From the NCBI GenBank assembly GCA_016223145.1, contig JACRPN010000001.1, positions 1 through 64,000 on the forward strand: a DNA stretch of 64,000 bases. Reading direction: 5' to 3'. Source of the stretch: Armatimonadota bacterium (GTDB lineage: Bacteria; Armatimonadota; Fimbriimonadia; Fimbriimonadales; Fimbriimonadaceae). A program made the position numbers and the translations under genes. The notes below the pieces were generated by a model. The model had not been told where the DNA came from. It ran no database searches and was given only the letters and a program-made list of their open reading frames with translations. This document shows positions 44,267 through 61,254 of this stretch, piece after piece (the stretch's first letter is position 1; the number at the start of each line of letters is the position of its first letter).

Positions 44267-44351
44267 GCGAGAGGCGAGAGGCGAGAGGCGAGAGGCGAGG
44301 GGCGAGGGGCGAGGGGCGAAGGGCGAGGGGCGAAGGGCGAGGGGCGAAGGG
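44265..44351. repeat. Heptamer repeat array (GAGGCGA / GGGCGAA units)
   Basis: About 12 head-to-tail 7-nt units drift from GAGGCGA to GGGGCGA to AGGGCGA. The array starts inside the TAG stop codon of the aminotransferase gene and is the longest in the window. Confidence 0.88.
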
Positions 44352-44369
44352 TGGATGCGCCGGAAATGC

Positions 44370-50173: not shown

Positions 50174-50249
50174 TCCCTTCGCGAAGGGTGAAGGGCGAGG
50201 AGCGAAGCGAATCGCAGATCCCGCGCCTTACGGGACCGGGTGAGGGGGC
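50174..50249. repeat. Heptamer units followed by a long-type family-B element (reverse)
   Basis: 50174-50205 holds GAAGGGT/GAAGGGC-type units beginning six bases past the operon stop. 50197-50249 is nearly identical, in reverse, to 61083-61133: GATCCCGCGCCTTACGGGAC then CGGGTGAGGGGG. Confidence 0.75.
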
Positions 50250-50277
50250 AGCGGGCGAAGGTCGAAGTAAGGTCGAG

Positions 50278-50324
50278 CCCCCTCCTCGTTTTGGTTCGTA
50301 AATGAGGAGGGGGTTGGGGGTGGA
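50278..50324 (-). repeat. Short family-A element
   Basis: CCCCCTCCTCGTTTTG ... AAATGAGGAGGGGG: inverted ends of 9-10 bp around a short middle, followed by GTTGGGGGTGG. It is the same end structure as the 75-bp copies but without the central TCCCGACATGTCGGGA palindrome. Confidence 0.7.
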
Positions 50325-50404
50325 CACTCCGCCGGCGCAAAACCCAACTCCCGCCCCTAGCACCTTGCGCCTACGGCGCCAGCGACCGCCCAAAGCCATC
50401 CACC

Positions 50405-54025: not shown

Positions 54026-54100
54026 TCCACCCCCAACCCCCTCCTTCCCGACAAGCCGGGACTCGGAAGCAGTTTCGCTGCGCAAAACCAAGGAGGGGGC
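54026..54100 (+). repeat. Family-A palindromic element
   Basis: CCACCCCCAACCCCCTCCTT, then CCCGACAAGCCGGGACTCGG, AAGCAGTTTCGCTGCGCAAA and the closing CCAAGGAGGGGG. The ends are inverted (CCCCCTCCTT / AAGGAGGGGG). It is the reverse-complement match of the copy inside gltX. Confidence 0.85.
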
Positions 54101-54106
54101 TCCAGA

Positions 54107-54212
54107 ATCGCCCCTCGCCTATCGCTTATCGCCTGTCGCCCTTCGCGCATCGCCCGACGCTCTTCGCGCATCGCCCGACGCTCTTCGCGCATCGCGCTTC
54201 GCCCTTCGCTTC
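54107..54212. repeat. Heptamer repeat array (CGCCCTT-type units)
   Basis: About 15 units, the reverse complement of the GAAGGGCG family. A 21-nt super-repeat (three units) occurs twice in the middle. The right end is one base from the stop codon of the phosphofructokinase gene. Confidence 0.88.
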
Positions 54213-56786: not shown

Positions 56787-58382
56787 ATGTCCGTCCGCGT
56801 CCGCTATGCTCCAAGCCCCACCGGCAGCCCACACGTCGGCAACATCCGCACGGCGCTGTTCGACTATTTGCTGGCGCGGCGATTCGGCGGCACGATGATC
56901 GTGCGACTGGAGGACACCGACCGCAGCCGCTACATCCCCGGTTGCGAGGAGGAGATCCTCGAATCCCTCAGGTGGATCGGCGTCGAATGGCAAGAAGGGC
57001 CGGACATTGGCGGGCCGTACGCGCCGTATCGGCAATCAGAGCGGGCGCAGCTTGGTATCTATAGGGAATGGGTCGATAACCTGATCGAATCCGGTAACGC
57101 CTATTGGGCTTTTGACACCCCAGAGGAGCTTGAGGAGATGCGCCTGACGCAGCAACTCAACAAGCTCCAAGTGGGCTACTTCGGCGGCCATTGGCGAGAG
57201 GCTTCAGCGGGCCAGATCGCACAGGCAACTGAAGAAGGCAAGCCGGGGGTGATCCGGCTAAAGATGCCCAGAGGACGCAAGCTTGTCGTCCACGACGCCA
57301 TTCGAGGACGCGTAGAGTTCGACAGCGACGTGGTCGATGACCCGGTGCTCCTGAAGGCCGACGGCATGCCGACCTATCACTGCGCGGCGATGATCGACGA
57401 CCACCTGATGGAGATCACGCACATCATTCGTGGCGAAGAGTGGATCAGCAGCGCGCCCAAGCATGTGTGGCTCTTCGAGGCGCTCGGCTGGGAGCCGCCT
57501 GAGTTCGTGCACGTACCGGTGATCCTGGGCAAGGACGGCAAGAAGCTCAGCAAGCGCCACGGCGACACGAAGTGCCTGGACTATCGCGACGGCGGGTACC
57601 TGCCCGAGGCCCTGGCGAACTTCATCGCGCTGATCGGCTGGGCGCCGGGGGGCGACCGCGAACTGATGAGCATGCAGGAGATGGCAGAGGCGTTCGACCT
57701 CAGTGGCCTTCAGCCCTCGCCCGGCGTTTTCGACCTCGACAAGCTGGTCTGGATGAACGGCAACTACATCCGGTCCTTGGCGCCCGAGCAGTTAGCCGAT
57801 CGGGTCAGAACCTATCTTCACCGTCCGGAAACGGCGGACTACTGGCTGCGCCCGGAGCATGAGGGCCACAAGGGGCAGTCGCTGCAGCTTCTCGAAAACA
57901 GCTTGGACAAGGACGCCGGCTATGTCACCCAGGCGATTGCTCTGGAGCGCGAGCGCGTGACGACGCTGGCAGACTTTGGCGAGGCCTGCGCGTTCTTCCT
58001 GCAGGACGAGCCCCCGATGGACGAGAAGGCAGTCGAAAAGTGGTTTGGTGAGTCTCACGTGCGGGGGCTTTGTGAGGACTTGGTGGGGTGGCTCTCTTCC
58101 CCCTCCTCGTCTTCGCGAAGCGAAAATGCCTCCGAGTCCCGACGTGTCGGGAAGGAGGGGGTCAGGGGGTGGAGATCCGGTCCGTCAGCCGCCGACTGCG
58201 AAGCCTTCCTCCGCGCCTGGGCTGAGACGCACGGTTTCGAGAAGCTCGGCCCGATTGTCCACCCGGTGCGTGTGGCGCTCACTGGCAAGACCACCGGCCC
58301 GGGGCTGTTCGAGCTGATGGAAGTGCTCGGCCCCGAGCGCATGGTCCGCCGCCTTCAACGCGCCAAGGAGATGCTCCGTTGA
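56787..58382 (+). CDS. gltX: Glutamyl-tRNA synthetase with an in-frame palindromic element
   Basis: 531 residues. Class I signatures: RYAPSPTGSPHVGNIRTAL (HIGH-like, about 5-23), RLEDTDRSRY, PTYHCAAMIDDHLMEITHIIRGEEW, and the KMSKS motif as LSKRHGD (about 253-259). The C-terminal anticodon domain ends with VHPVRVALTGKTTGPGLFELM. Residues about 437-463 (from SSPSSSSRSENASESRRV on) are encoded by a family-A repeat element read in frame; homologues have a short linker there. It charges tRNA-Glu and possibly tRNA-Gln. Its stop overlaps the hisD start by 4 bp. Confidence 0.95.
   Translation: MSVRVRYAPSPTGSPHVGNIRTALFDYLLARRFGGTMIVRLEDTDRSRYIPGCEEEILESLRWIGVEWQEGPDIGGPYAPYRQSERAQLGIYREWVDNLIESGNAYWAFDTPEELEEMRLTQQLNKLQVGYFGGHWREASAGQIAQATEEGKPGVIRLKMPRGRKLVVHDAIRGRVEFDSDVVDDPVLLKADGMPTYHCAAMIDDHLMEITHIIRGEEWISSAPKHVWLFEALGWEPPEFVHVPVILGKDGKKLSKRHGDTKCLDYRDGGYLPEALANFIALIGWAPGGDRELMSMQEMAEAFDLSGLQPSPGVFDLDKLVWMNGNYIRSLAPEQLADRVRTYLHRPETADYWLRPEHEGHKGQSLQLLENSLDKDAGYVTQAIALERERVTTLADFGEACAFFLQDEPPMDEKAVEKWFGESHVRGLCEDLVGWLSSPSSSSRSENASESRRVGKEGVRGWRSGPSAADCEAFLRAWAETHGFEKLGPIVHPVRVALTGKTTGPGLFELMEVLGPERMVRRLQRAKEMLR
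58097..58172 (-). repeat. Family-A palindromic element inserted in gltX
   Basis: Read on the minus strand it gives CCACCCCCTGACCCCCTCCT, then CCCGACACGTCGGGACTCGG, AGGCATTTTCGCTTCGCGAA and GACGAGGAGGGGGAA, matching the copies at 54026 and 60727 along their length. On the plus strand it has no stop in the gltX frame. Confidence 0.92.
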
Positions 58383-60726: not shown

Positions 60727-60801
60727 CCACCCCAACCCCTCCCTTCCCGACATGTCGGGACTCAGAAGCATTTTCCGCTTCGCGAAAAACAAGGGAGGGG
60801 C
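60727..60801 (+). repeat. Family-A palindromic element
   Basis: CCACCCCAACCCCTCCCTT, then the perfect palindrome TCCCGACATGTCGGGA (16 bp), CTCAGAAGCATTTTCCGCTT, CGCGAAAAACAAGGGAGGGG. It ends about 5 bp before the stop codon of the convergent small gene. Confidence 0.87.
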
Positions 60802-60806
60802 CAGAG

Positions 60807-61082: not shown

Positions 61083-61133
61083 CCCCCTCACCCGGTCCCG
61101 TAAGGCGCGGGATCCTCGATTCGCTTTGCTCCC
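61083..61133 (-). repeat. Long-type family-B element
   Basis: CCCCTCACCCGGTCCCGTAA, GGCGCGGGATCCTCGATTCG, CTTTGCTCCCC. It matches the reverse of 50197-50249 almost base for base, a subtype distinct from the GTGAGCG-core copies. The next 30 bp also hold a CCTCCCACAAGGGGCGAGG hairpin. Confidence 0.75.
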
Positions 61134-61191
61134 CGACGGAACCGGGGCAGGCACCGACCCCTCCCACAAGGGGCGAGGTTGTCTGTCTCCC

Positions 61192-61241
61192 TCCCCAACC
61201 CCTCCCTCATTTTCCGCCAGAGCGAAAAACAAGGGAGGGGC
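61192..61241 (+). repeat. Short family-A element
   Basis: CCCCAACCCCTCCCTCATTT ... CGAAAAACAAGGGAGGGG: the same ends as the copy at 60727, without the central palindrome. It ends 14 bp before the stop codon of rnjA. Confidence 0.75.
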
Positions 61242-61254
61242 CCAGACTTCTACC

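Follow-up and report, generated by a model that had tools for sequence, protein, structure and literature searches.

Small palindromic elements inserted in frame in conserved protein genes of a Fimbriimonadaceae bacterium

The glutamyl-tRNA synthetase gene (gltX) of an Armatimonadota bacterium of the family Fimbriimonadaceae carries a small palindromic element within its reading frame, one of 17 in-frame, stop-free copies found in 15 long ORFs on seven contigs among 105 places examined. With a probability of roughly 85%, these are small, gene-less fold-back elements that have recently been amplified in one Fimbriimonadaceae lineage, and whose survivors inside genes are in frame and tolerated as extra loops. 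Palindromes read in frame are familiar chiefly from Rickettsia; in that reduced intracellular parasite, weak selection could explain their presence in housekeeping genes. Here the same outcome is found in a larger genome. Four aminoacyl-tRNA synthetases and TrmD are hit, and one in-gene copy is identical to an intergenic one. The short and long forms of the element and its nested modules can serve as natural empty and filled sites, and the system offers a way to find out which of its parts is mobile, by what means it is copied and how much insertion a core enzyme can bear.

The gltX gene lies in the window, as the whole stretch of 64,000 nucleotides that was analyzed is called here (Table 1). 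Its product scores 458.5 bits against the TIGR00464 profile (cut-off 289.95), and its match to the Pfam family Anticodon_2 is split into two stretches. In a sequence-only reading of the window, 58097-58172 had been taken for a reverse-oriented copy of intergenic elements at 54026-54100 and 60727-60801, and this is borne out: 54030-54099 and 58099-58168 form an inverted repeat of 70 nt with 84% complementarity, and a BLAST search with the intergenic copy 60731-60800 as query finds the gltX copy on the minus strand with E 1.1e-11. The best non-genic relative of the gltX copy is 91% identical over 64 nt. The coordinates and residue numbers given at that time are correct to within a few bases, the element being slightly longer than written; the covariance model described below spans 58097-58170 (minus strand), and the TCTCC end lies further on, at 58171-58175. 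It was also rightly recognized that the element keeps the frame and introduces no stop, the ORF 56787-58382 reading through, while the placement of the insert in the linker of the anticodon domain is roughly right, an alignment with the Thermus enzyme (1j09) setting it between residues 386 and 410. In the predicted fold, the hairpin proper of the hairpin-1 module occupies 58137-58152.

Table 1. Coordinates of the element in gltX, of the other copies in the window and of the copies inside genes (contig:position for the latter).
Feature	Position	Strand	Basis or remark
gltX, glutamyl-tRNA synthetase, 531 aa	56787..58382	+	host gene; ORF and TIGR00464
Palindromic element in gltX, long form, outer-stem type B	58097..58175	-	in frame, about residues 437-463
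Outer stem arm of gltX element, CCCCCTCCT (plus-strand reading)	58099..58107	-	sequence and fold
Outer stem arm of gltX element, AGGAGGGGG (plus-strand reading)	58153..58161	-	sequence and fold
Hairpin-1 module of gltX element, TTCCCGAC..GTCGGGACTCGGAGGC in element orientation	58128..58153	-	unit of ~25 nt
Hairpin 2 of gltX element	58112..58124	-	centroid fold only; minimum-energy fold pairs the region otherwise
Intergenic copy, long form	54028..54101	+	covariance model
Intergenic copy, long form	60727..60802	+	covariance model
Intergenic copy, short form without hairpin 1	61190..61242	+	long-form model, E 0.0058
Intergenic copy, short form, ACGAACC inner hairpin	50275..50335	-	BLAST and eye; outside the model's list
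GltX	C1:58097
MurC-Ddl fusion	C13:158040
IleRS, two in tandem	C11:199499 and 199556
LeuRS	C13:182469
GlnRS	C22:126223
TrmD	C1:211213
Aconitase	C11:342064
6-Phosphogluconate dehydrogenase (6PGDH)	C9:16939
MazG	C8:176533
GH20	C8:199285
GH2	C9:86876
GH2, module in the ACCTCTCCC..AAGGGGCGAGGT repeat	C1:69264
M14 peptidase	C17:19210
Amidohydrolase, two in tandem	C22:118934 and 118997
428-aa ORF	C11:80077		no Pfam or NCBIfam family

The short copies at 61190-61242 and 50275-50335 had not been named in the earlier reading. A pattern for the core hairpin has six matches in the window, corresponding to three places on both strands, where shuffled sequences lead one to expect 0.14. Chance similarity among the copies is ruled out by the BLAST results, by this comparison with shuffles and by the matches between in-gene and non-genic copies. 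A known RNA family was likewise rejected as the identity of the element, the Rfam search of the window at the gathering score returning one tRNA only. The folding of 60727-60802 (z = -3.6) and 61190-61242 (z = -4.7) is clearly better than that of shuffles, and that of the gltX copy (z = -2.4 and -2.0) and 54028-54101 (z = -1.7) only modestly so. Other repeats are present in the window as well. A second dispersed palindromic repeat occurs at 50196-50248 and 61083-61135, both intergenic and 92% complementary over 53 nt, and intergenic, tandem-like runs of GCGAAGGGCGA / ATCGCCCGACGC at 44270-44360 and 54107-54211 resemble, by eye, runs found beside several copies of the element.

In the whole genome, a draft assembly of 3.87 Mb in 23 contigs, a BLAST search with the copy 60731-60800 gives 40 matches at E<=1e-3 and, with the weaker ones up to E<=10, 47 in all. 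A covariance model was built on an alignment of 23 copies, among them the gltX copy, 54028-54101 and 60727-60802, and finds at least 111 matches at E<=10 and at least 72 at E<=0.01; the model scored 150 of 2388 first-look candidates, and the copy numbers are lower bounds. The 111 matches reduce to 105 places, five being the same place on the opposite strand and one (C9:97781) being weak. The match at C15:106645 (E 3.25) lies in an apparent coiled-coil ORF and was taken as chance. Model spans of the 105 copies range from 48 to 91 nt, and a simple pattern divides them into 41 long and 64 short forms. The short form is without the hairpin-1 module TTCCCGAC..GTCGGGACTCGGAAGC, so that the outer stem holds one inner hairpin rather than the two of the long form. 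The ends of the element read 5'-G/TCTCC and GGGG/CT-3' (the slash marking the boundary), with the G at 49, the C at 44 and the T at 40 of the 55 sites where both ends were recognized.

The outer stem exists in two versions, CCCCTCCC/GGGAGGGG or CCCCCTCC/GGAGGGGG. Both arms could be typed in 74 of the 105 copies, giving 50 A/A, 23 B/B and a single mixed pair. Each stem type is seen with long and short forms and with varied inner hairpins, which points to an exchange of modules. In the 23-copy alignment, 93.7% of the cells are paired (97.4% in the outer stem, whose arms constitute terminal inverted repeats) and 19 cells are changed on both sides; the overall pairing and the two-sided changes exceed all 500 shuffles, and the covariation score was reached by none of the 500. 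In contrast, 209 of the 500 shuffles attain the three pairs with changes on both sides, and all of them attain the eight further pair types. The structure tested for covariation was drawn from those same sequences. Moreover, the covariation may stem from the existence of two subfamilies, because the 5' tail tends to go with the outer-stem type.

The element family is common to a few Fimbriimonadaceae and amplified in the lineage studied here. At E<=1e-3, BLAST finds no match in 84 other genomes of the family. The covariance model has matches in five of 85 family genomes: 46 in the genome under study with the stricter filters of this search, four in genome G093, and one each in G001, G013 and G019. 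An exact-pattern scan of the GTDB collection, which possibly leaves out the genome under study, returned three loci, all in one Fimbriimonadaceae MAG with seven model matches at E<=0.05; judging by the agreement in place and score, this MAG is apparently G093. The element is probably mobile, as the earlier suggestion of a mobile or spreading element had it, to judge from its dispersal, its near-identical copies and its restriction to a lineage.

No consistent target-site duplication was found at the 55 sites, of 105, with both ends recognized: the best of 180 combinations of length and offset, a 3-nt duplication, is present at seven of the 55 sites, against 1.5 expected. The most serious competing account is a REP or TIR family mobilized in trans by a Y1 transposase of the RAYT or TIRYT type. 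Transposases of the Y1 class are expected to leave no target-site duplication, as is the case here; the hairpin units are of REP size, and 11 Y1_Tnp matches above the cut-off were counted in this genome, compared with four in each of two genomes of the same genus. The surroundings of these genes speak against it. Around all 12 Y1 matches, 11 stretches were examined, each reaching about 1.2 kb to both sides except one that a contig end truncates, and at E<=0.01 none of the three consensus sequences (long, short and class-2) has a hit in them; in eight of 10 stretches scanned, the Y1 ORF is flanked, by eye, by other inverted repeats. An element flanking a Y1 transposase was discarded as a candidate, and mobilization by such an enzyme is considered less likely than not. 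Derivation as a MITE of a DDE-type insertion sequence is improbable: it would agree with the terminal inverted repeats and the small size, but not with the lack of a consistent target-site duplication at the 55 of 105 sites, and no longer copy with an internal gene was noticed, incidentally, among the matches. Under the preferred reading of small gene-less elements, a copy would insert as a single unit, and the most likely route, proposed with less assurance, may be that single strands of the hairpins are copied or joined and leave the target unduplicated.

The presence of further copies in coding sequence had been foreseen, and the 17 copies in 15 ORFs listed in Table 1 provide them, in both orientations; several of the hosts are housekeeping genes. 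The long-form model gives low scores to several of the short ones (E 5.9 for MazG, 1.08 for the 428-aa ORF, 0.14 for the first IleRS copy and 0.11 for M14), and for this reason each was compared by BLAST with the 87 non-genic copies. Every one of the 17 has a counterpart among them with 80-100% identity and an E value between 7.8e-31 and 7.6e-10, and from 33 to 70 non-genic matches at E<=1e-3. Letter-reversed controls of these G/C-rich palindromes gave matches down to E 3e-8, always far below the true match. The LeuRS copy is identical to the intergenic copy C14:173509 over 56 nt (100%) and the GlnRS copy shares 98% of 57 nt with a non-genic copy, an indication that movement was recent.

Given that 85% of the window is coding (54546 of 64000), against 17 of 105 copies in genes, in-gene insertions are strongly depleted, presumably because most of them would break the protein and be lost. 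The survivors would be those in which the frame is kept, no stop arises and the site lies where aligned homologues vary in length; the surviving insert would then be translated as an extra loop that the enzyme tolerates. Apparently, the host proteins do tolerate the added loops, and the GltX insert is probably one such tolerated survivor without a function of its own. A beneficial role, either as adaptive linkers or as regulatory mRNA hairpins in translation genes, might be read into the four aminoacyl-tRNA synthetases and TrmD among the 15 hosts. It is nevertheless judged quite unlikely: glycosidases, a peptidase and an amidohydrolase are hosts too, the depletion in genes argues against benefit, long proteins with variable loops would simply be big targets, and the use of several frames and both orientations yields no common peptide. 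A preference for hydrophilic frames was also considered and rejected, the frames used by the 17 copies being varied and not consistently the most hydrophilic.

Further low-complexity peptides were observed in TrmD (L030), LeuRS (L154), 6PGDH (L144), MazG (L174) and GH2 (L135), namely QSAIRNPKS, SDQSD, SDLSDKSD, PLEGEVGERSEPGEG and RDKGTKGQG, which look like dispersed repeats read in frame. In TrmD, MazG, 6PGDH and LeuRS such peptides lie next to the element, which suggests that tolerated sites gather more than one insert.

The 17 copies were gathered as copies spanned by an ORF, and their in-frame state is thus partly a matter of selection; likewise, the absence of stops is by itself weak evidence, since any one of the six frames is free of them in between 52 and 101 of the 105 copies. 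A codon-usage screen trained on 30 window ORFs, which requires no spanning ORF, was applied to the 103 testable places, the other two of the 105 having too little flank at a contig end. Both flanks are coding on one strand at 19 of the 103, and the frame is the same on both sides at 16 of these 19, where a third would be expected. Three of the 16 are in ORFs of only 55-108 aa, were not counted and are probably not in genes. Among the three frame-differing places, one is located just before a fructose-6-phosphate aldolase gene and another before the family-matching part of a GlcF-like ORF. These frames bear on the idea that the insert is left untranslated, by ribosome bypass or by removal from the mRNA, in which case the frame would not matter. 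The element can fold back on itself and has a bypass-like size, and bypass of a coding gap is documented for phage T4 gene 60. Bypassing is also known in mitochondria. Inserts of either sort would be expected to keep the frame in roughly a third of cases, in contrast to the 16 of 19 places and the 17 spanning copies (selected as such), and, at 49-77 nt by model spans, they are to our knowledge far smaller than any self-splicing intron; escape from translation is accordingly held to be very improbable. An assembly artefact is the least credible explanation of all: despite the draft state in 23 contigs, comparable in-frame inserts, not identical to one another, occupy 15 ORFs spread over seven contigs, and a fault at 58080-58190 is unlikely given 14 other ORFs with a similar insert.

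Comparison with homologues shows the insert to be absent from related proteins. The GltX query has matches in all 61 genomes searched, its own included, and 30 loci were considered: the gene itself, one locus left out for want of a start (L057) and 28 relatives, which were aligned. As the sequence-only reading had proposed to verify, all 28 are without the insert, and an ancestral loop of GltX was dismissed as its origin. The two genomes of the same genus, which are among the 28, have five other residues nearby instead. The related MAG that carries the element is likewise without it in GltX, its match breaking off at 434 and resuming at 465. Homologues without the insert are available for 12 of the 15 hosts, the other three being GH20, the GH2 at C1:69264 and the 428-aa ORF. 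The insert is absent in two to four aligned relatives each of Ddl, IleRS, LeuRS, aconitase, GH2 (C9), M14 and MazG, and in four each of TrmD and the amidohydrolase; the LeuRS of one relative has a different long insert. For GlnRS and 6PGDH, no good match was found in the relatives searched, and solved homologues were used, which have eight residues in place of 31 (GlnRS) and none in place of 40 (6PGDH). The GlnRS segment (C22:126223, L134) has no GlnRS match in G001, G002, G019 or G034, the one weak hit in G034 lying in its gltX; the lineage may have acquired GlnRS first and the element may have come into the gene later. Neither a polymorphic copy nor, in any single-copy gene, an exact nucleotide-level empty site for a whole element was observed.

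Smaller units within the element may also be able to move. A pattern search of the fetched DNA found 40 hairpin-1 modules, of which 29 were typed as lying in the main loop, five as lying in a different repeat (ACCTCTCCC..AAGGGGCGAGGT) and six as other. By eye, three of the latter (C10:28272, C8:206290 and C8:219000) occupy the main element's left arm or its tail, and the remaining three belong to the main loop but have altered arms. A further module, degenerate in sequence, is found inside the ACCTCTCCC..AAGGGGCGAGGT repeat at C1:69264, and one empty copy of that repeat was recognized by strict pattern. This arrangement of sequences suggests that the hairpin-1 module may move on its own. The element would then be an assembly of smaller hairpin units capable of inserting into one another, as may be supposed less surely than the insertion of whole copies. 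A more far-reaching proposal can be offered only tentatively: a modular, self-nesting system in which units of about 25 nt insert beside CCC runs in other repeats and form composites that seed in-frame loops in essential genes, so that selfish hairpins generate protein insertions through a copying mechanism other than a known transposase.

In its outcome, the element works like the Rickettsia palindromic elements (RPE) and in-gene REPs. In-frame palindromes are indeed documented in Rickettsia, as the sequence-only reading stated (PMC10969869 and PMC2229807), but they are not special to it, since PMC3733652 describes in-gene palindromes, some of them in tRNA synthetases, from Opitutus terrae, Thauera, Xanthomonas and other bacteria. 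PMC10969869 and PMC2229807 describe RPE as dispersed palindromes, inter- and intragenic and in frame in conserved housekeeping genes; their length is given as about 105-150 bp and their terminal repeat as 12 bp, and a conserved peptide is attributed to them. PMC3733652 assigns REP size and a CGTC tag to RPE-4 and RPE-6. By these descriptions, the present element shares the in-frame insertion in conserved protein genes and the absence in relatives, whereas it measures about 50-80 nt, against about 105-150 bp for the RPE-1 type, and is read in several frames and both orientations instead of giving one conserved peptide. REPs of the GTAG/CGTC superfamilies are outlined in PMC3733652 as hairpins of 20-40 bp, single or grouped and mostly intergenic, with some in genes, including uvrA and tRNA synthetases. 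The element resembles these intragenic REPs in being a hairpin repeat that is mostly intergenic and partly in genes, tRNA synthetases among them. No GTAG/CGTC tag was noticed by eye in the listed copies, and, unlike in REP/RAYT systems, no element hit accompanies the 12 Y1 matches of the genome. Composite stem-loops are also a trait of the TIR repeats of TIR-associated tyrosine transposases, and the genome has Y1 genes with inverted repeats of their own, which differ from the element (no hit). Correia/NEMIS and ERIC, small MITE-like repeats with known in-frame fusion to ORFs (PMC2229807), are similar in these respects, but have target-site duplications and TA ends in the table of that paper, neither of which was seen in the present element.

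In the sequence-only reading no in-frame palindromic element was known from this phylum, and the literature examined agrees: titles and the opening lines of abstracts on Armatimonadetes and Fimbriimonas gave no report of such palindromes. Searches joining Armatimonadetes with palindromic repeats led to CRISPR, microbiomes and genome surveys, and those joining Fimbriimonas with palindromes to a heme-binding protein.

A further observation concerns uvrA, which is apparently split into two ORFs on two contigs, C5:171955-173934 (L079) and C9:254675-255622 (L080), at the boundary of the ATPase halves (TIGR00630 positions 1-611 and 609-924). On the minus strand of C9, between 246.5 and 254.4 kb (L064), there are degenerate duplicates of the 3' end of the C-part. 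In three of these IDLGPG is followed by the main element, while no such insert is present in the original (254.7 kb); duplicates and original are natural filled and empty sites. Two of the three have other small palindromic inserts too, by eye. Upstream of the C-part of uvrA (L080), the beginning of the ORF (TTGAGCAACAACGGCTGG) occurs a second time, the two being separated by a CCCAGGCGTCTCGCCTGGG-like palindrome, an arrangement that resembles the inverted repeats around one Y1 transposase gene (L246).
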